DNA of 41,852 nt from a virus, in the IMG/VR virus record IMGVR_UViG_3300032245_001176, positions 1-41,852 of that record. One strand, 5' to 3'. Positions 1,101-38,321 of this stretch are shown one piece after another. Below the pieces are notes generated by a model. That model had not been told where the DNA came from. It searched no databases and saw nothing but the letters and a program-made list of their open reading frames with translations. Numbering within the stretch: the stretch's first letter is position 1; every line of letters starts with the position of its first letter. A program made the position numbers and the translations under genes.

Positions 1101-1852
1101 GGTGCCAACCTCGCTTTACCGTACCTAGTAGCCTTGTACCACTCGGCAATCTGTGGCGCCCATGCCTCCAGATGCGGAAACATCAGCTCACACAACTGCC
1201 AAATCTCATGCTGCGCATCCATTTTGGCACGCAGGTCAAGGAAGTGGAGAAAGGCCCGCAGGGTAAAGCTTACAACAAAATGCTGGCGATAATCAAAAGG
1301 TAGGATGCCGCGGGCTTGTTCTTCGGCCATGCCTGCTTCAATGTGCCTGGCGTACAAATTGGCAGCGTCATAGCAATGATCAAGGTCCCAAGTGCGCTGA
1401 GCTTTAGTGTATTCATACTTTTTGCCTTGCCGGTTGTCATAAACGCCTAGGGGGCGCAAATAAAAAACCTTTTCCAGGTCAATTTCACCAGTGGCGGCTC
1501 TAAGAATGTTCTCCGAAGTGTATCTAAAACTCTGGCAATCAAACGACACCCCGATACGATGGGTGCGAGCTTGTTGCATCACCGAATGAGGAAACCAGCC
1601 AGCATTGAGCGTGATCTGAGGGTGCTCTAAGGGGCCGTAGTGACCTCGCTCGCCGGATAGAAGGCGTTTGATACAGATTTCGCCGGCTTGTTGTTCGTCA
1701 GGATAGCCAAGCTCCCAATCAACTGAATAAGCTACAAACTTATGGCTGTAATCCTGGTGCATTGCTGCATAAATAACACCTTGAGGCTTGGGAGTCTGAG
1801 CAATCAAATTCACTCGGAAACGGGGATCCATGGGGGATGTGGGGTGGGTCAC
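1097..1852 (-). CDS. thyX: Flavin-dependent thymidylate synthase ThyX
   Basis: A 251-aa ThyX, which methylates dUMP to dTMP using methylenetetrahydrofolate and FAD/NADPH. The signature region is a variant of the classical RHR-X7-S motif: R96-T-H-R99 followed by S108-x-R110-Y111. The C-terminal block (RAFLHFLDLR about 199-208, then AQHEI) matches the family's dUMP/folate-binding helix. Length is normal. The gene is coupled to both neighbours by ATGA overlaps. Together with the phage Dcd (39737-40333) it would supply dTMP. The leader-type element CTCAGACTCCCAAG lies inside the 5' part of the gene (1787-1800, same strand). Confidence 0.93.
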   Translation of the reverse strand: MTHPTSPMDPRFRVNLIAQTPKPQGVIYAAMHQDYSHKFVAYSVDWELGYPDEQQAGEICIKRLLSGERGHYGPLEHPQITLNAGWFPHSVMQQARTHRIGVSFDCQSFRYTSENILRAATGEIDLEKVFYLRPLGVYDNRQGKKYEYTKAQRTWDLDHCYDAANLYARHIEAGMAEEQARGILPFDYRQHFVVSFTLRAFLHFLDLRAKMDAQHEIWQLCELMFPHLEAWAPQIAEWYKATRYGKARLAP

Positions 1853-28885: not shown

Positions 28886-29470
28886 ATGCCGTCGCCCTCA
28901 GTCCTCCTGGACGTTCCATATTTCAGCCAGCTAGACCCGAATGACGGGCCGGAGGGCTGGCGGCAGTGCCAATCTTCAAGCGTGGCCATGTGCTTGGCGT
29001 ACCTGCGTCGCACCGGCAAATGGGTCCCACGGATTCCAGGTGTCCTGCCGATCAACGACGACACCGACTACCTGCGGGTCGTCAAATCCTGCGGCGACAC
29101 TACCTCTCAAGCAACTCATAATTGCGCCCTGGGCAAGCTGGGGGCCCCCGGCAAATTCAGCCGGCGGCTGAGTGTTGATGATCTGAAAGCGACCCTTCTG
29201 CGCGGGTTTCCAGCTGCGATCGGTGTCCTGCACCACGGCACGCCATCAAACCCATCCGGGGGAGGGCACTACGTCGTGGTTTGCGGGTTCGATGCCACGG
29301 GCTGGCATGTTCACGACCCCTATGGCGAGCTTGATTTGCTTACGGGTCGCTGGGTTCGGTCTGGATCTGGCACCGGCCGCAGCCTGCATTATTCTTACAG
29401 TAACACAAACCCTCGATGGACTCCAGAGGGGCCCAACGCGCGGACGGGTTGGGGGTGGGTTTTTGGCTGA
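28886..29470 (+). CDS. C39-like cysteine peptidase, candidate endolysin
   Basis: A 194-aa papain-fold peptidase of the C39 type. Likely residues are Q15 (oxyanion), C28 in WRQCQSSSVAMCLAYL, H128 in GGGHYVVVCGF and D144 in HVHDPYG. No signal peptide is seen, so a holin or other export route would be needed. It follows the tail genes and no muramidase or amidase is present elsewhere, so a role in peptidoglycan cleavage at lysis or entry is likely but inferred. The start is 42 bp from the divergent tail gene. Confidence 0.8.
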   Translation: MPSPSVLLDVPYFSQLDPNDGPEGWRQCQSSSVAMCLAYLRRTGKWVPRIPGVLPINDDTDYLRVVKSCGDTTSQATHNCALGKLGAPGKFSRRLSVDDLKATLLRGFPAAIGVLHHGTPSNPSGGGHYVVVCGFDATGWHVHDPYGELDLLTGRWVRSGSGTGRSLHYSYSNTNPRWTPEGPNARTGWGWVFG

Positions 29471-29952: not shown

Positions 29953-30801
29953 TCAGGTCAGGGTTGAGAGGCTGAGCTGCTCCACCCCCCGCAACTCGGC
30001 ACGGGCCGCCAACAGCTCGCGCCGAACCCTGGTGCCGGTCATGCCGGGAATCCAGGTCAACGCCTTCAGCGAAACCGGAGCTGTCCCCCTGAGCCCGTAC
30101 GACTCCGTGATCAGTGTTCTATGCAGCGGGGATAATGTATCCACTAAACTATAAAGATCAGCGTAATCATTGCCCTCAGCTGGTGCCGCTTGAAGGCCGC
30201 CAAAATCTATCTCATCTTCCGAATTTTCGACCATATAATCAAGGCTTAGGCATGGTTGACCCATGCGCAGCCTCGCGTCCACCAACTCAGCGGCAATCCC
30301 GCATTCATCAACAATCTCTTGCCTTGTTGGGGGTCTCCCATGCAGATCATGGAGGCGACCAATTGCCTTGAAAATCTTGGACAGTTGCTCAGCATGGCCC
30401 ACCGGCAGCCGGATGGTTCGGCAGTCAGTGGCCACCCATCTCGTCGTTGCCTGCCAGATCCACCAGGTAGCGAAGGTCGAAAACTTGTAACCCCTCTCAG
30501 GGTCAAACTTCTCCGCCCCCCGCATCAATCCAATTGCACCAGCCTGCAGCATGTCGACATGATCACTGGTGCCAACCAGGCGGGGGTATTTCCTGATCTC
30601 GCGACGCACGACGGACGCAACGAGGCGGAGATTTCCGTTTACCATCCGGTCCCTAGCCCGGCGGCCCCGGCGAATTGTGCGGGGGCACGGGTCCGGGTGA
30701 TCGAGCCACCCTCGCACCTGTCGCCCCAGTTCGATTTCCTCTGATGCCGCCAACAACGGGTGGCGGCCGGCTTCATTCAGCCAGAATTGGACGGTGGTCA
30801 T
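29953..30801 (-). CDS. Phage-encoded sigma-70 family RNA polymerase sigma factor
   Basis: A 282-aa sigma factor, ATG 30801, 4 bp after the SSB stop. Region 1.2 is FWLNEAGRHPLLAASEEIEL (6-25). Region 2 is nearly canonical: LRLVASVVRREIRKYP, DMLQAGAIGLMRGAEKFDPE (83-102), RGYKFSTFATWWIWQATTR (103-121). Region 3 covers about 135-185. Region 4 (about 220-270, LSPLHRTLITESYGLRG ... GTRVRRELLAARAEL) is more divergent. The pattern is closest to cyanobacterial group 1/2 sigma factors. It may redirect host RNA polymerase to phage promoters. The open frame extends upstream, but this start gives the normal N-terminus. Confidence 0.9.
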   Translation of the reverse strand: MTTVQFWLNEAGRHPLLAASEEIELGRQVRGWLDHPDPCPRTIRRGRRARDRMVNGNLRLVASVVRREIRKYPRLVGTSDHVDMLQAGAIGLMRGAEKFDPERGYKFSTFATWWIWQATTRWVATDCRTIRLPVGHAEQLSKIFKAIGRLHDLHGRPPTRQEIVDECGIAAELVDARLRMGQPCLSLDYMVENSEDEIDFGGLQAAPAEGNDYADLYSLVDTLSPLHRTLITESYGLRGTAPVSLKALTWIPGMTGTRVRRELLAARAELRGVEQLSLSTLT

Positions 30802-30805
30802 GGCG

Positions 30806-31498
30806 TCAGAACGGGATCTCGTCGTCACCCGGGGCGGCGGTCGCCGAGGCCGCGCCAGTTCGGTGGGGCGCTGATGCAAAACCACCCTCAGCGTCCTTCC
30901 TGCTGCCCAACAACTCAAGCCGATCCACCCGGATCACCACTTTCGACCGCTCTTCACCATTGGTGCGGTCGGTCCAGCGGTCGAGTTTGAAGGAGCCGAT
31001 GATGCCGAGCAAGGAGCCCTTGCGGACATAGTCGGCTGCAACCTGGGCCTGTTTGCCCCAGATTTCGAGATTGAACCAGTCGGGCTCGTCGTCACCGCTG
31101 GCGCGGTTCACTGCCAGGGTGAGATTTGCGACCATGTTGCCGGACTCGAAGTAACGGACTTCAGGATCGCGGCCGGCCCGGCCAACGAGGATGGCATTGT
31201 TGACACCGGGACTGTCTACCGGCGCGCTGACGCGGTGAAACTGGGTGGCCTGAAACTTTGGCGGCTTGTTTTTTTCAATGCGGAACCGGCCGGCCAGGAT
31301 CAGGTAGGAGTCCACCTGGACGCATTGCATGGCCTCGTTGGCTAACTGCCCCCAGATTGAGGCCTGTAGCGACATCGGGGGATCCTCCTGTTTATAGGCG
31401 GCGATCTCCACGGGGAAACTGGCGACCTGTTTATCGCCCCCAACCGCCTGGAGCTGCGGTGGGGCTTTGACGTGGGCCAGCACGGTGAGGCTGTTCAT
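30806..31498 (-). CDS. ssb: Double OB-fold SSB (Ycf41-like domain fused to canonical SSB)
   Basis: A 230-aa single-stranded DNA-binding protein with two OB folds. Residues 1-90 (MNSLTVLAHVKAPPQLQAV ... ASIWGQLANEAM ... YLILAGRFRI) resemble the cyanobacterial/plastid Ycf41 SSB-like family. Residues about 97-198 (NNAILVGRAGRDPEVRYFES ... WFNLEIWGKQAQVAADYVRKG) are a bacterial SSB domain. The C-terminus ends DDEIPF, the conserved tip that recruits repair and replication enzymes. The start at 31498 is chosen for the typical MNS opening; upstream extension is possible. Confidence 0.9.
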   Translation of the reverse strand: MNSLTVLAHVKAPPQLQAVGGDKQVASFPVEIAAYKQEDPPMSLQASIWGQLANEAMQCVQVDSYLILAGRFRIEKNKPPKFQATQFHRVSAPVDSPGVNNAILVGRAGRDPEVRYFESGNMVANLTLAVNRASGDDEPDWFNLEIWGKQAQVAADYVRKGSLLGIIGSFKLDRWTDRTNGEERSKVVIRVDRLELLGSRKDAEGGFASAPHRTGAASATAAPGDDEIPF

Positions 31499-31524: not shown

Positions 31525-32103
31525 TCAGGTGGTGGGCTCTAAAACAGACCGCAACCATTCAGCGGCCTCTGCGTTTTCGTCGTAAAAATGGCGGTGAGCG
31601 TCAGGCCCTAAAAGCATCAGGCCCGCAACCTCAGCTCCAACGGCAACCTCCAACAGCCGCCCTAGCTCTCCGGCCTGATGGATCGCCCAACCTGATACGC
31701 AATGCGCAGAGTCGCACGTATGCCAGCAGCCCATCTCTAGCCCGCCCGCCAACGCGGCTGCAGCAACTGCCTGCAGGCGTTCGGGGGCGTCGTTAGCAAT
31801 GACCAGGCCCAGCGCCCCGGCCAGGTTCGCCCCGGCCAGGTCCGCCCCGGCCAGGATCGCCCCGGCCAGGTTCGCCCCGGCCAGGTCCGCCCCGGCCAGG
31901 TCCGCCCTGGCCAGGTCCGCCTCGGCCAGGTTCGCCCCGGTCAGGTCCGCCCCGGCCAGGATCGCCCCGGCCAGGTCCGCCCCGGCCAGGTTCGCCCCGG
32001 TCAGGTCCGCCCCGGCCAGGATCGCCCTGGTCCCCTTTGGATCATTAACAAGCCACAACGCATGACCGAACAAAATTTCGGGCAGATTGACAGAAGGATT
32101 CAT
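31525..32103 (-). CDS. Pentapeptide-repeat protein with C-terminal HCxxGW domain
   Basis: A 192-aa protein. Residues 29-98 contain about 14 near-identical A(D/N)LxG pentapeptides ([15 protein letters not shown]) forming a predicted right-handed beta-helix. The C-terminal 85 residues hold [20 protein letters not shown] followed by a helical [12 protein letters not shown] end. I have seen this module type attached to pentapeptide proteins in phages, but its function is unknown. DNA mimicry or gyrase protection is known for some pentapeptide proteins; here it is unproven. Confidence 0.85.
31810..32022. repeat. 15-bp tandem repeat array encoding pentapeptides
   Basis: About 14 units of a 15-bp sequence (consensus on + strand GCCCCGGCCAGGTCC, with TTC/ATC variants) form most of the pentapeptide coding region. 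High nucleotide identity between units suggests recent expansion by slippage or recombination. Confidence 0.9.
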
Positions 32104-32133: not shown

Positions 32134-32973
32134 TCAATCAACCAGGCCAGGGATCACCTCAGCCGGCTCCACTGGTGTGCCCCTCTTAGCGATCACCCGG
32201 CGGGCATCCGCAGGGGTGGGCGCCGGCGCTGGCTTGGTGTTGGGGGTGGTTCCGGGCCGCTGGGGGTGGCCGGGGGGGTCGATTGATCTCCTGCTGGGCA
32301 ATGGCGCGGCGCCGGTCTTCCTGCTGGCGGCTGGCAGGTCGTCAGCACCATCAGCAGGCACTGCATTACAGCGCTTCACCGTCTGCGCCGAAATACCCTG
32401 TTTGGCGATGTTGGCTAGCACCTCAGGCGGTGCATCGCTCAGGTCACTGGTGCTGCCCTGGCTGAACTCACGCACAAACGCAGCGATCCCGGCATTGGTC
32501 AGACCGGAGCGGCGGCAGGCGGCATCGGCCTGGGCCAGCAAATCCTCAGATGAGGCAGCAGGGGGTGCCGGTGCCGCAGGTGTGGCAGCAGGCAACGGCG
32601 TCACCTTGTACGGCGACCGCTTTTGCCTGGTCACGGTCAGCGCAATTGACAGCGGGCCATCCAGGTGCGAAAGATGAGAGACCCTGATCCCGCCTACTGC
32701 AATGCCGCCGTAGATCACGCTGGGATCACGAAACAGCGTCACCCGCCGGCCCACGTACTGCAAGGCATCAGCGCCCCAGGCAGCGACCAGCACCCTCCTC
32801 ATGGACTTGCACGGATACCATGGCTTCCCGCCGTCACCCTCAAACGAAACGGCAACAGGTTGCTCAGCGTTGCCGGCCGTGACCTTCGTGATCGTGATCG
32901 TGATCGCGCCGGCGATCAGGTCGTCTGTGTTGAGCTGTGAGGATTTCGCCTCCAGAGTGGATGTGATGTCCAT
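32134..32973 (-). CDS. Conserved phage protein partnered with YqaJ exonuclease
   Basis: A 279-aa protein. The N-terminal 130 residues form a recognisable conserved block (DDLIAGAITITITKV, FEGDGGKPWYPCKSMRRVL, WGADALQYVGRRVTLFRDP, GGIAVGGIRVSHLSH) that often sits next to phage exonucleases. The C-terminal half is a Pro/Ala-rich linker with a helical patch. It could be a recombination or replication accessory such as an annealing protein, but that is inferred from its place directly after the exonuclease in a TAATG overlap. Confidence 0.7.
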   Translation of the reverse strand: MDITSTLEAKSSQLNTDDLIAGAITITITKVTAGNAEQPVAVSFEGDGGKPWYPCKSMRRVLVAAWGADALQYVGRRVTLFRDPSVIYGGIAVGGIRVSHLSHLDGPLSIALTVTRQKRSPYKVTPLPAATPAAPAPPAASSEDLLAQADAACRRSGLTNAGIAAFVREFSQGSTSDLSDAPPEVLANIAKQGISAQTVKRCNAVPADGADDLPAASRKTGAAPLPSRRSIDPPGHPQRPGTTPNTKPAPAPTPADARRVIAKRGTPVEPAEVIPGLVD

Positions 32974-33650
32974 TAAAAAATGATCTCCTGCTCAGGTTGG
33001 ATAGGTTCGGTGGCCGGGAATTTGGCGGCGATCGTGGTGTAAAGCTTCATCAACCGCTGCAGCTCAACCTCAGCGGCCTGTGCCGCGACGATCAGTTTTG
33101 CAATCAAAAGCTTGTCACGCTGGCAGCGGTGGACGAACAGCGGCAGGCCGGGGGCGTAACTGATGTAGTCACACCAGGCGCGGCCAGTGACAGCCAGACC
33201 GGTCTGCACCTGCGGCACGTACTCAGATGGCACCTCACCACTGAACAGCGATCGGAGGTGGTTCTTCTGCCGGGGGCTCTTGATCTCAATCAGGCCGTCA
33301 TCACCCACTAGCCCGTCGGGGCTGTAGCCGATCACGGTGCCGTCGAAATCAGTGGTGACGAATCCGCACTCCTGCACCGGCGCTCGGTACTCGGCATAGA
33401 TGTCACGGGCAAACGGTTCCAGCAGGTGACCGCGGGCCATGTCGTCGCCGTAGAAACTGGGCTCGCTCTCACCGGTAATCCGCTCGGCCAGCAGCTGCAG
33501 CAACTGGGCGCGGCTGGTGTCGTTGTTGGCAGGTTTGCCGCTGCCGGTGAGCAGTTTGCTGATCGTGCTGGCCGTGACCACGCCACGCCTGAGAGCGTGC
33601 CAGTCGTCGCTCCCCTGCTCGATGTCGTGGTAATAGGTCGGGTTCGCCAT
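32973..33650 (-). CDS. YqaJ-type (lambda exonuclease-like) recombinase nuclease
   Basis: A 225-aa PD-(D/E)XK nuclease. The signature is GHLLEPFAR (E78), GYSPDGLVGD (D112) and LIEIKSP (E122, K124). The N-terminal QGSDDWHALRRGVVTASTIS is the typical YqaJ start. Such enzymes digest one strand of dsDNA ends 5' to 3' to make ssDNA for annealing-based recombination. It works naturally with the SSB and the 32134-32973 partner, and with RusA for resolution. Confidence 0.92.
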   Translation of the reverse strand: MANPTYYHDIEQGSDDWHALRRGVVTASTISKLLTGSGKPANNDTSRAQLLQLLAERITGESEPSFYGDDMARGHLLEPFARDIYAEYRAPVQECGFVTTDFDGTVIGYSPDGLVGDDGLIEIKSPRQKNHLRSLFSGEVPSEYVPQVQTGLAVTGRAWCDYISYAPGLPLFVHRCQRDKLLIAKLIVAAQAAEVELQRLMKLYTTIAAKFPATEPIQPEQEIIF

Positions 33651-33721: not shown

Positions 33722-33916
33722 TCAGTTCAACGCCTCCAACCCACAGGCAGATCGAACCAGATGATGCACCGCCCCTGAGGCGCTGAGCCCGTGGGCCCGC
33801 ATGGTTGCCTGCACAGCGGTCCAGGCGTCCAGGTGCAGGCTCACGGCAACGATCTGCCGGGGGCCGCAGTAACGCCGGTAGGGGTGGGGTTTTGAGTCGG
33901 GAGGCTGTCTATTCAT
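33722..33916 (-). CDS. Small RHH-like protein
   Basis: A 64-aa protein. RQIVAVSLHLDAWTAVQATM followed by GLSASGAVHHLVRSACGL fits a ribbon-helix-helix DNA-binding pattern, with a basic N-terminus (SKPHPYRRYCGPR). The start ATG 33916 overlaps the stop of the Gly-X repeat gene as ATGA. It may regulate the recombination operon. A 71-bp gap without features separates it from the exonuclease. Confidence 0.6.
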   Translation of the reverse strand: MNRQPPDSKPHPYRRYCGPRQIVAVSLHLDAWTAVQATMRAHGLSASGAVHHLVRSACGLEALN

Positions 33917-34062
33917 TGACTATTCGCCCCGGACCCGTCCCCGTCCCCGGACCCGGACCCGGACCCGGACCCGTCCCCGTACCCGGACCCGTACCCGTAC
34001 CCGGACCCGGACCCGGACCCGTACCCGTACCCGTACCCGGACGCAGATCTTGCAGTAGTCAT
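33913..34062 (-). CDS. Gly-X dipeptide repeat protein (49 aa)
   Basis: An ORF of 49 codons between two coupled genes. The ATG (34062-34060) overlaps the upstream TGA as ATGA, and its own TGA overlaps the downstream ATG as ATGA. After MTTARSAS the protein is 18 Gly-X dipeptides, with X = Tyr, Ser or Asp, and ends ANSQ. This resembles low-complexity Gly/Tyr/Ser sequences that phase-separate or stick to surfaces. The perfect coupling on both sides argues that it is translated. Confidence 0.65.
   Translation of the reverse strand: MTTARSASGYGYGYGSGSGSGYGYGSGYGDGSGSGSGSGDGDGSGANSQ
33925..34041. repeat. Hexanucleotide microsatellite (GGACCC/GTACCC/GTCCCC)
   Basis: About 19 tandem 6-bp units, variants of G-(G/T)-(A/C)-CCC on the + strand, forming the body of the Gly-X gene. 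Because the unit is two codons, changes in copy number keep the reading frame and the coupling to both neighbours. Confidence 0.95.
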
Positions 34063-34424
34063 TGCCACACCTTTTCCAAGCCTGGTGCCGGAATAATCTC
34101 GCACCAATTGCGCAAAACAATTTGATCAACTACAGAATCAATCTTGTTTTCTTTTGCTGTTTCCAGGCCGTGAACGGCCAAGCCAGATAGAGCAACGCCT
34201 GCTTTTGCGTGCCAGCGCCACAATCTGCGGCTTCTGGAAAGTGTAACCATGTCGCCGTCTACTCTTTCCAGAGTTCCACAATGAACGCCGGCTGCTTCGC
34301 AGCGGATGATGACAAACTTGCCAATATTTACATTGGCTTGAAGTGGAGCGTTGTCATTTGTCTGCATTGGGGCTTGCAAAAATTCCCGCAAAATTGAAAC
34401 AATGTCTTTGAGTGTGATTTCCAT
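34059..34424 (-). CDS. DUF6948-like phage protein
   Basis: A 121-aa protein, ATG 34424 (MEITLKDIVSILREFLQAPM). The segment GKFVIIRCEAAGVHCGTLE followed by SRRLWRWHAKAGVALSGLAVHG and CEIIPA matches a small conserved phage family (DUF6948, from memory) of unknown function. It is preceded by a CTCAGACTCCCAAC leader copy 19 bp upstream and lower-GC sequence. The stop overlaps the Gly-X gene start. Confidence 0.75.
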   Translation of the reverse strand: MEITLKDIVSILREFLQAPMQTNDNAPLQANVNIGKFVIIRCEAAGVHCGTLERVDGDMVTLSRSRRLWRWHAKAGVALSGLAVHGLETAKENKIDSVVDQIVLRNWCEIIPAPGLEKVWQ

Positions 34425-34465: not shown

Positions 34466-34720
34466 TCAAGTCACCAGCTCCCGATGGGCGGCCCGGATTG
34501 CCAGGCCAAACTCGATGTCATGGCTGCATGTGCCGGCTGGGGGCGGCACGGAGGATGGCCGGTAGGAGTCCGGCTGACGCTGACCCAGGCGGGCCTTCAT
34601 ATCGGCCAGGATCGCCTCCAGTTCCTCCCAGCAGGAGGATTCGGGGTTGGCGTCAGCACGACAGCGGGCGTCGGCCATGGATTCAGACAACCACCTACAG
34701 CGGCGTTCAAGCAGGGTCAT
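34466..34720 (-). CDS. Small hypothetical protein
   Basis: An 84-aa protein starting at ATG 34720 (MTLLERRCRWLSESMADARC), in an ATGA overlap with the upstream membrane protein gene. The N-terminal half is helical and charged (CWEELEAILADMKARLGQR); the C-terminus is a short helix (FGLAIRAAHREL). No family was recognised. Confidence 0.6.
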   Translation of the reverse strand: MTLLERRCRWLSESMADARCRADANPESSCWEELEAILADMKARLGQRQPDSYRPSSVPPPAGTCSHDIEFGLAIRAAHRELVT

Positions 34721-34956
34721 GGCCCTACCCTCGCCACATTGGGGGCTGGGCACTGGGAGCGCCCGTGGTGGATACCAATATTGATCAGCGCCAGAGCCAA
34801 GAGCAGGTTGCAGATCAGCGAGCCGGCGAGCATGGTGCGGCGCTCCTGGCTAGTGGCTTCTGGTTGGTCAGCCTGGGACTCGTCCAGCATGTCTCGCAGG
34901 TCGTCGAGTCGGTCTAGGGCCAAATCAAGAACTCGCAACTTTCTGGCTTGGCTCAT
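34717..34956 (-). CDS. Small membrane protein with N-terminal coiled coil
   Basis: A 79-aa protein. The N-terminus is a heptad-like helix (KLRVLDLALDRLDDLRDMLD), then a polar linker, then one membrane helix (MLAGSLICNLLLALALINIG) near residues 43-62. It overlaps both neighbours by ATGA. Function unknown; membrane-linked superinfection exclusion is a possibility for an early phage gene of this type, with no direct evidence. Confidence 0.65.
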   Translation of the reverse strand: MSQARKLRVLDLALDRLDDLRDMLDESQADQPEATSQERRTMLAGSLICNLLLALALINIGIHHGRSQCPAPNVARVGP

Positions 34957-36378: not shown

Positions 36379-37665
36379 CTACGTCGGATCGTCGCCCGGG
36401 CAATCTCTCAGCCGGATTTCGACCCGGTTGGGATTGCCGGTATAGGTGATCTCCGCCACCAGCTCCAGGACGACTGCGCGCAGCTCCGCAACGGTGGCAC
36501 CCTCCAGGGTTCCAGGTCTGAGCAGCACATCCCGGAAACCTGCCCAGTCCGCTGATTGCGGCGCTGGCGGTGGCGCTAGGAGATCCATCCTGAGGGCCTC
36601 GATCGATCCCTCCAGGCCAGGGACGCCCTGCTGCTGCAACTGCTCCAATTGGTCAAGCTGCGCCCGTTTGGCGATGCGCTCCGGTGGCTCGGTAGTCTGA
36701 ACCGTGGCCGCTGCGATCTGGCCCATCCGGCAGGCAGCGGTTCGCAGGGCATCGATTACCTGCTCCTGAATTTTCCATTCGGCCAGGCCCCGGCCCCAAA
36801 ACTGGCACTGGGCGCCGGTGCATTTAATCCGGGCTTTGCCGTAGGCCATCGTGTAGTGCATTCGCCTTCCGCACCCCACGCATTGAATCAGGCTGGAAAA
36901 AACCCGCATTTTCGACGGTGCCCTGGTCTGGTAAACCCGGCGGGATTCCTGCTGCTGGCGCGCCCGTTGCCACTCCTCCCAGCTGATCAAGGCCTCAACC
37001 TTGCCGGGCTCCCCTCGAACCACGCCCCGCAAGATCGGATTGTCCAGCCAACGATTCAGGCCTCTCTGAGACCAGTCCAGCCTATGGAGCCGCCTGGCGC
37101 CTGAGCAGTTGAACTCCATCGCCGCCAGCGTGTCCCACAATTGCCGCGCCAGGGGGAATGTCTCGGGGTCAGGCTGGACCTGCGAGCCGTCGTATCTATA
37201 GCCGTATGGCACTCGGCCGCAGGCGTAATGGCCCTGGGCCCTGCGACCGGCTAGGCCAGCCTTGGTGCGACGGCTTTTGATGTCTGAGTCGATCTCATTG
37301 CAGAGGCTCACGACCCCGGTAATCAATTTCGACGATGGGTCCTCCATGTCAACCGGCGTGCCATCCAGCAGGACCACATCCACCCTCAGGCGGGCGCACA
37401 TCCTGAACAGCTGCACATCTTCGCCGCGGCGGCTCAGCCGAGACTGAGACGCGACGTAAAGCCGCCGGACCTGGCCGCTGGCAACGAGCCCCAACAGTCG
37501 CTCCCATTCCGGCCGGGGCTGTCCTTTGTAAGCGCTGGCACGCTCAACAATGATTACGTCGCAGCCAAGGGCCTTGAGGTCGATCACCTGCTGATCGATC
37601 GACGTGTCCTGATCGGCCCCTTTCGTGCTGACCCGTGCGTGACCAACCACCAAACTCCCGGCCAT
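36379..37665 (-). CDS. int: Large serine recombinase (integrase)
   Basis: A 428-aa integrase. The resolvase domain has HARVSTKGADQDTSIDQQ with the catalytic S13 (usually YxRVS), plus LYVASQSRLSRRGEDVQLF and the IDSDIKSRRTKAGLAGRRAQG hinge. A recombinase DNA-binding domain follows (about 160-260). The zinc ribbon has CVGCGRRMHY ... CTGAQC. The end has a coiled-coil-like stretch (AQLDQLEQLQQQG). It is shorter than many large serine integrases. The related pattern is seen in cyanobacterial element-excision recombinases (XisF type). It would integrate at attP, most likely just upstream of its start. Confidence 0.92.
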   Translation of the reverse strand: MAGSLVVGHARVSTKGADQDTSIDQQVIDLKALGCDVIIVERASAYKGQPRPEWERLLGLVASGQVRRLYVASQSRLSRRGEDVQLFRMCARLRVDVVLLDGTPVDMEDPSSKLITGVVSLCNEIDSDIKSRRTKAGLAGRRAQGHYACGRVPYGYRYDGSQVQPDPETFPLARQLWDTLAAMEFNCSGARRLHRLDWSQRGLNRWLDNPILRGVVRGEPGKVEALISWEEWQRARQQQESRRVYQTRAPSKMRVFSSLIQCVGCGRRMHYTMAYGKARIKCTGAQCQFWGRGLAEWKIQEQVIDALRTAACRMGQIAAATVQTTEPPERIAKRAQLDQLEQLQQQGVPGLEGSIEALRMDLLAPPPAPQSADWAGFRDVLLRPGTLEGATVAELRAVVLELVAEITYTGNPNRVEIRLRDCPGDDPT

Positions 37666-37943: not shown

Positions 37944-38321
37944 ATGAACGCCATCATCAAAGGGGCCCTCCAATCCGACTGGAGCCCCATCATTGAAGCC
38001 ACCGTCCGCGCCCTGGTCCACCTGATCGCCGTAGTGATTGTCCTGGCCCAGTGGGCACAATTCACCTGGCGCCGGCCATGGGCGGGCCTCCTAGCGGTGA
38101 TCAGCTCCCCTCGATCCGCTGGGAACTCCCCTCGATCCGCTGTCAGCTCCCCTCGATCCGCTGGGAACTCCCCTCGATCCAAGCCCATGGCGCCCCTGCT
38201 GCTGATGCCTGCAGCCCCGGTCCTGCTGCTGGCCGCCGCTCCTGAGCCAGTCCCCTCCTCAGCGCCACCGACCCGCAAGCGAGGGCGAAGAGCAACTCGT
38301 CAACCAAAAGCGGTGGCTTGA
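37944..38321 (+). CDS. Membrane protein with tandem SPRSAxN repeats
   Basis: A 125-aa protein, ATG 37944 (MNAIIKGALQSDWSPIIEAT). One membrane helix (LVHLIAVVIVLAQWAQFTW, about 29-47) is followed by 3.6 copies of a heptapeptide SPRSAGN/SPRSAVS, a Pro/Leu/Ala-rich stretch that may be a second hydrophobic segment, and a very basic C-terminus (RKRGRRATRQPK). Other frames across the repeat are also open, so coding strand choice relies on the TM segment and basic tail. Function unknown. Confidence 0.5.
   Translation: MNAIIKGALQSDWSPIIEATVRALVHLIAVVIVLAQWAQFTWRRPWAGLLAVISSPRSAGNSPRSAVSSPRSAGNSPRSKPMAPLLLMPAAPVLLLAAAPEPVPSSAPPTRKRGRRATRQPKAVA
38105..38180 (+). repeat. 21-bp tandem repeat (3.6 copies)
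   Basis: Units at 38105, 38126, 38147 and a partial at 38168 share CTCCCCTCGATCCGCTG; the last four bases alternate GGAA / TCAG. The 21-bp unit is seven codons, so copy-number change keeps frame. Confidence 0.9.

Follow-up and report, generated by a model that had tools for sequence, protein, structure and literature searches.

A recurrent phage gene pair: DUF6948, with a predicted Sm-like fold, and an overlapping, hypervariable Gly-X repeat gene

Introduction

Among the described systems closest to the locus reported here are the Sm ribonucleoproteins of Borgs, in which the Sm protein has an N-terminal repeat extension with units of 4 to 17 amino acids (PMC9879509). The likeness is that an Sm-fold protein of an extrachromosomal element is joined to a fast-evolving disordered tandem repeat (PMC9879509). 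In Borgs, however, the repeat lies in cis, whereas in the tailed phages considered here it forms a separate coupled gene with units of 2 amino acids. Hfq provides a second parallel, as it combines an Sm ring with a Gly-rich or acidic disordered tail: the C-terminal repeats of Acinetobacter Hfq have the sequence GGFGGQ, and their redundancy matters for function (PMC11617691), while the C-terminal domain of Escherichia coli Hfq is acidic (PMC5606850). Hfq differs in being a cellular gene with its tail in cis, and the phage protein DUF6948 has no detectable sequence similarity to it. A third parallel is mycobacteriophage Adephagia gp39, a small protein described as Hfq-like on the basis of structure prediction; it is a single gene and is not known to have a Gly-X partner (PMC11373665).

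Results and Discussion

The Gly-X gene and the phage that carries it

The window, by which we mean the whole stretch of DNA that was analyzed, comprises the 41,852 bases of a virus record in IMG/VR. Its genes include those for a terminase, portal, head protease, SSB, exonuclease, and serine recombinase, and mark it as a tailed and probably temperate phage. The serine recombinase (36379-37665, minus strand) is a likely integrase, and a sigma-70-like factor (29953-30918, minus strand) and a C39-like peptidase (28886-29470, plus strand) are also present. A second coding tandem repeat was found in the early region within an open reading frame at 31525-32103 (minus strand), where about 14 units of 15 bp (31813-32020) encode pentapeptide repeats (PF00805), and a 21/42-bp tandem repeat (CTCCCCTCGATCCGCTGGGAA) occupies 38101-38180.

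The original prediction described a hexanucleotide array in this genome as itself a coupled gene, encoding 18 Gly-X dipeptides with Tyr, Ser, or Asp at X and overlapping both neighbors by ATGA. Translation and Tandem Repeats Finder agree with this description, and both overlaps are present (Table 1). The minus strand of 33913-34062 translates as MTTARSASGYGYGYGSGSGSGYGYGSGYGDGSGSGSGSGDGDGSGANSQ followed by a stop codon, and the X positions of its (Gly-X)18 tract are occupied by Tyr (6), Ser (9), and Asp (3). Tandem Repeats Finder reported 33928-34039 with a period of 6 and 18.7 copies, and a period of 18, reaching 34042, scored too. The longest Gly-(Y/S/D) run was 18 units, whereas 30 first-order Markov shuffles of the window produced none longer than 3. 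Matches of the array to Pfam TrAA12 and keratin-associated families had low scores and were set aside as compositional. On both strands, several frames run through the stop-free 6-bp array without interruption, and so its openness alone is no proof of coding; the case for coding is made by the comparative evidence that follows. On that evidence we have hardly any doubt that the repeat is a real small phage gene for a disordered Gly-Tyr/Ser/Asp protein, and the earlier suggestion of a low-complexity phage protein is borne out.

Table 1. Features of the Gly-X locus in the window and Gly-X arrays in other phage sequences
Feature	Coordinates	Strand	Remarks
YqaJ/RecE-like exonuclease	32973..33650	-	PF09588 E 4.5e-22; phrog_149 E 2.2e-36; early recombination region
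Downstream gene	33722..33916	-	64 aa, no family; resident phage gene outside the cassette; present without the cassette in L002, L007, and L008
(Gly-X)n gene	33913..34062	-	49 aa, MTTARSAS-(GX)18-GANSQ; basis: translation, Tandem Repeats Finder, homologous position and peptide in 80/80 DUF6948-sampled loci
ATGA overlap, Gly-X stop/next gene's start	33913..33916	-	Gly-X TGA 33915-33913 overlaps ATG 33916-33914
Hexanucleotide array GGG-(TAC/TCC/GAC)	33928..34042	-	18 perfect units; higher-order 18-bp periodicity
ATGA overlap, DUF6948 stop/Gly-X start	34059..34062	-	Gly-X ATG 34062-34060 overlaps TGA 34061-34059 of the upstream open reading frame
DUF6948 protein	34059..34424	-	121 aa from ATG 34424, the likeliest start, which aligns with N termini of other members; frame open to TTG 34469 (136 aa); predicted Sm/LSm fold
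Upstream gene	34466..34753	-	95 aa, no family; resident phage gene; directly abuts the 64-aa gene in relatives
Gly-X arrays misannotated or not annotated in GenBank	L472 1786-2031; L475 1294-1866; L473 about 1189-1400		L472, QOE32032.1; L475, UOF77468.1

A recurrent two-gene cassette

The gene that overlaps the start of the Gly-X gene encodes a member of Pfam family PF22253, DUF6948 (E 6.5e-23; 81.1 bits versus a cutoff of 27; residues 51-128). Pfam lists this family with unknown function, and other phage proteins bear the name; a literature search, mostly of papers outside subscription, found none that names it. Used as a single query against viral contigs, the window protein gave no matches. 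A divergent family with the motif DRGFVYVG lies upstream of most of the inspected arrays that have no Pfam match there. It matched DUF6948 when profiles were compared (hhalign P 3.7e-6), and 4 of 11 of its members matched the Pfam DUF6948 model.

An exact DNA pattern of five GGG-KMC units detected at least 119 stretches in viral contigs. Arrays reached 67 units among the matches listed and were mixtures of TAC, TCC, and GAC; the pattern admits only these codons and GCC, so that the rarity of GCC is informative and the absence of other codons is not. The GGG arrays usually had a start and a stop nearby in the Gly-X frame, as did those with GGC-based units. When genomes were scanned with the GGG pattern, the matches were mostly of six units and in GC-rich bacteria.

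DUF6948 was present in 40 of 50 array-bearing contigs versus 0 of 50 control contigs, the latter being exonuclease relatives. At the DUF6948 loci that were fetched, the array nearly always begins about 250 nt or less downstream, on the same strand. With a combined profile of 13 sequences, some of them taken from the same loci that were tested, a DUF6948-like open reading frame was recognized within 900 nt upstream of 133 of the 146 arrays sampled by DNA pattern and was not recognized for the other 13; its stop fell within 50 nt of the array in 97 cases. A reverse scan with one DUF6948 protein, in which the array was not used, gave 80 loci at 60 to 100% identity, and a run of at least five Gly-X dipeptides starts within 400 nt of the DUF6948 stop in all 80, although the contig that supplied the query itself bears an array and the 80 loci represent one clade. 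In L494, L505, L522, L525, and L549 the first run is short or consists of other residues or another frame. The window has the same arrangement, with a same-strand Gly-X gene directly downstream that overlaps the end of DUF6948. These observations indicate that DUF6948 followed by (Gly-X)n is almost certainly a conserved two-gene cassette. The window gene, for which no described equivalent had been known, is therefore not a lone case but one instance of a widespread cassette.

Some Gly-X proteins extend beyond the array. Those of L088, L094, L108, L110, L112, L121, L148, and L352 have a conserved C-terminal domain (W.....FW.S...G.P.NGG ... LHAT..P.KW.GER.W.VAL.GEV ... E.LGE) without a Pfam match. 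In L323, L372, and L476 the array is followed by a different conserved C-terminal domain, AHGxTxxxAxxxLQxKL, also without a Pfam match. The array of L391 follows a DUF7666 domain (PF24703), and a short GACxDGV-type N-terminal domain with no Pfam match precedes the arrays of L129, L327, L345, L359, L368, L395, and L398.

Sampled loci with a recognizable neighbor are mostly near recombination or replication genes, such as those for Sak4-like annealing proteins, RecE-like exonucleases, and DnaB. This setting bears on the possibility that the Gly-X polymer is a structural or adhesive protein that decorates virions or makes a silk-like matrix. The composition of the polymer is indeed silk-like, and in phages that infect Pectobacterium the pair adjoins tail fiber and tail genes. 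However, besides the prevailing neighborhood, the window pair lies beside the YqaJ exonuclease and SSB, and neither a signal peptide nor a virion domain was seen in the translations, which makes a structural role improbable.

The overlap and translation of the second gene

In 63 of the 80 loci sampled through DUF6948, the Gly-X ATG lies at exactly -10; the window has the ATGA overlap instead. The Gly-X frame is -1 relative to DUF6948 in 68 of the 80. With an ATG at -10, the A is supplied by the third position of the codon that precedes the C-terminal Trp of DUF6948. Of 69 distinct tails, 61 have A there, compared with 30% for all third positions of these genes. The Shine-Dalgarno match upstream of the start was 4.39 bases versus 2.85 at control positions. 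Together, the third-base A excess and the longer Shine-Dalgarno match indicate that the overlap is maintained for translating the second gene. Programmed -1 frameshifting into the Gly-X frame was considered and rejected; only 5 of 70 distinct junctions contain a slippery heptamer, and coupling or reinitiation is therefore likelier. In L338, DUF6948 and (GX)n are fused in one frame.

Selection on the peptide and in-frame hypervariability

Phages differ in the Gly codon of their arrays, with GGC, GGG, GGT, and GGA all in use, and the third base of the X codons is C or T. Seven classes of hexamer unit were seen; they encode one peptide alphabet, while the other frames give peptides that differ from class to class. 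In classes with GGC, GGG, or GGT as the Gly codon, Ser makes up 35 to 45% of X, Tyr 25 to 32%, and Asp 21 to 30%; the single GGA array has Asn, Asp, or Tyr. Counts of X across the family were 609 S, 520 Y, 399 D, and 125 N of 1777. The recurrence of the same Y/S/D alphabet in seven unit classes shows selection at the level of the peptide.

The alternative that the array is a nucleic-acid-level element (a G-quadruplex, an RNA structure, or a translational spacer between early genes) and its open reading frame fortuitous would fit the potential of the GGGNNC unit to form quadruplexes and the openness of the array in several frames. However, GGC, GGT, and GGA arrays occur at the same place without GGG runs, the RNA folding of the window array is unremarkable given its composition (z -0.16), and the downstream gene is not constant. 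The codon diversity, as read from the sequences, largely refutes this alternative, which we find barely credible. The spacer version, which the original prediction had also offered, is not supported, because the peptide is kept across seven nucleotide unit classes and the constant neighbor is DUF6948 upstream, not the gene downstream, which varies.

Variation of the array could be followed in eight cultured phages infecting Pectobacterium, whose DUF6948 genes are 88 to 100% identical. In all eight the Gly-X gene starts 14 nt ahead of the DUF6948 stop and stays in frame, but the Gly-X proteins are 53, 67, 73, 73, 73, 83, 85, and 89 amino acids long, as read from assemblies, which can mis-size repeats. 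Phages Amona and Ymer have identical DUF6948 genes with arrays of 67 and 73 amino acids in a different order. The differences are all of whole dipeptides, with repeat assembly error possible in single cases. That gain or loss of units would leave frame and coupling intact had been predicted, and the eight phages, with the same start and overlap throughout, support it.

Such very fast turnover is also what would be expected if the tail were neutral, with slippage expanding any Gly-Tyr/Ser/Asp seed after DUF6948 and only the end of DUF6948 under selection. Against this, the start codon and Shine-Dalgarno match are under selection, the same three or four X residues recur across the seven unit classes, the frame is kept in 8 of 8 Pectobacterium phages, and extra domains have been appended in frame in several subfamilies. 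We regard a neutral tail as highly improbable.

Existing annotation obscures these genes. GenBank labels the Gly-X proteins of the Pectobacterium phages hypothetical, and the Gly-X open reading frame of Iodobacter phage PhiPLPE is unannotated. In Chlorobiaceae phage CV-1-33 and in ctRVW222 the array is annotated in the wrong frame as MAMAMALAMA; proteins of this kind come from misreading the frame of (GGCTAT/TCT)n arrays.

Presence of the cassette among close relatives

The closest relatives that show the region, found through the exonuclease (82 to 87% identical), are L002, L005, L006, L007, and L008. DUF6948 and the array are absent from all five, where the short gene that precedes the exonuclease comes immediately after the 95-aa gene; L002, L007, and L008 keep the same neighbors as the window. 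A search of relatives for arrays that break frame or have lost the overlaps, as the original prediction had called for, did not refute the coupled-gene claim. The close relatives of the window phage are without the whole cassette. Either the window phage gained the cassette or its relatives lost it. Gain is favored because the composition of the DUF6948 gene deviates: it has 47% GC, versus 65 to 66% in the flanking genes, and ranks among the lowest 1.3% of equally long segments. The window phage has therefore probably acquired the cassette.

Accessory presence, low GC content in DUF6948, and a hypervariable array beside an invariant partner would also suit a coupled pair that acts in counter-defense or host takeover. 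The acidic, disordered polymer would then be a decoy or sponge that occupies host proteins binding nucleic acids or sensing polymers, DUF6948 would be its anchor, and array change would reflect an arms race. However, 13 DUF6948 members had no match among the PADLOC anti-phage defense families, the acidity of the window protein is slight (net -2), and slippage alone can account for the variability of the array. We consider this explanation unlikely.

A predicted Sm-like fold for DUF6948

Structures of the window DUF6948 and of the divergent subfamily were modeled with AlphaFold2 from non-overlapping alignments, with pLDDT values of 87 and 88, respectively. The window model has a short N-terminal helix (H26-32) and five strands and fits the Sm fold, with a predicted strongly bent five-stranded barrel. 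In a Foldseek search with this model, the best 50 matches were all Sm/LSm or snRNP/spliceosome chains (best E 2.4e-3). In VIA its Z score reached 8.8 (rmsd 2.1 over 71 residues, 1jri_B), and the divergent-subfamily model also had a best Z of 8.8; small beta-barrels resemble one another, and a Z of about 8 to 9 is not far above common folds. The best Foldseek match of the divergent-subfamily model was PDB 3by7 (E 8.2e-3), followed mostly by Sm/LSm chains. This entry is an environmental sequence, titled as structurally similar to Sm/LSm-like RNA-binding proteins, and has no sequence match with DUF6948. A cyanophage origin has been proposed for it, and we know of no Gly-X partner for it.

Sequence comparison was less telling. 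Against an Sm profile of six sequences, four of which may not be exact, hhalign gave DUF6948 a weak match (P 0.002 to 0.003, probability 10 to 13%) that was in register over the Sm1 strands only. Searches of PDB sequences with both DUF6948 profiles gave no Sm-family match, and the Sm2 Arg-Gly at the penultimate strand is not conserved in the DUF6948 alignment (A1). For the latter reason, we term DUF6948 Sm-like in predicted fold rather than a member of the LSm family. Judged from the models, an Sm-like fold is quite probable.

A possible mechanism and its significance

We tentatively propose, at slightly less than an even chance, that the window phage acquired a cassette in which an Sm-like protein is accompanied in trans by a translationally coupled, hypervariable Gly-X tail that tunes or clusters a nucleic-acid-bound ring. 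The first gene, DUF6948, would supply a small Sm/LSm-like beta-barrel protein and the second an almost purely disordered (Gly-Tyr/Ser/Asp)n polymer. As the second start lies in the last codons of the first gene, both may be made together through translational coupling. The length and order of the polymer shift rapidly by whole 6-bp units with its alphabet and reading frame kept, and this pattern suggests a function set by composition and valence rather than by the precise order of residues. The polymer could then act as a flexible multivalent Tyr/Gly tail for the Sm-like protein, comparable to the Gly-rich tails of Hfq and LSm proteins, and may tune or cluster the predicted ring on nucleic acid in the early (replication/recombination) phase. 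We infer physical interaction, nucleic-acid binding, and clustering by the pair; ribonucleoprotein clustering or tuning as the function itself is somewhat less likely than not. The Gly/Tyr/Ser/Asp composition is compatible with phase separation or clustering in cells, and the condensate-like protein suggested by the original prediction is a possibility. In an unlikely further extension of the proposal, ring and polymer would form a split LSm/low-complexity system that builds RNA or replication granules, with valence retuned by 6-bp slippage.

Literature searches, mostly of papers outside subscription, found no relevant paper with Gly-X peptide strings and no description of a coupled Gly-X gene beside DUF6948. 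Databases already contain single DUF6948 proteins; what seems to be new is the hypervariable partner coupled to them, along with the prediction of an Sm-like fold. DUF6948 thereby gains a predicted fold and a partner, and annotation pipelines are seen to skip or misframe the Gly-X gene, a conserved partner of this recurrent phage family. Cultured phages of Pectobacterium, Iodobacter, and Vibrio allow direct tests of a natural hypervariable, sequence-degenerate disordered protein. Among phage systems, the cassette may be the first to encode an Sm-like protein and the disordered tail that goes with it by separate genes. If the split LSm/low-complexity proposal is true, it would be a viral analogue of eukaryotic ribonucleoprotein granules carried on a mobile two-gene cassette.
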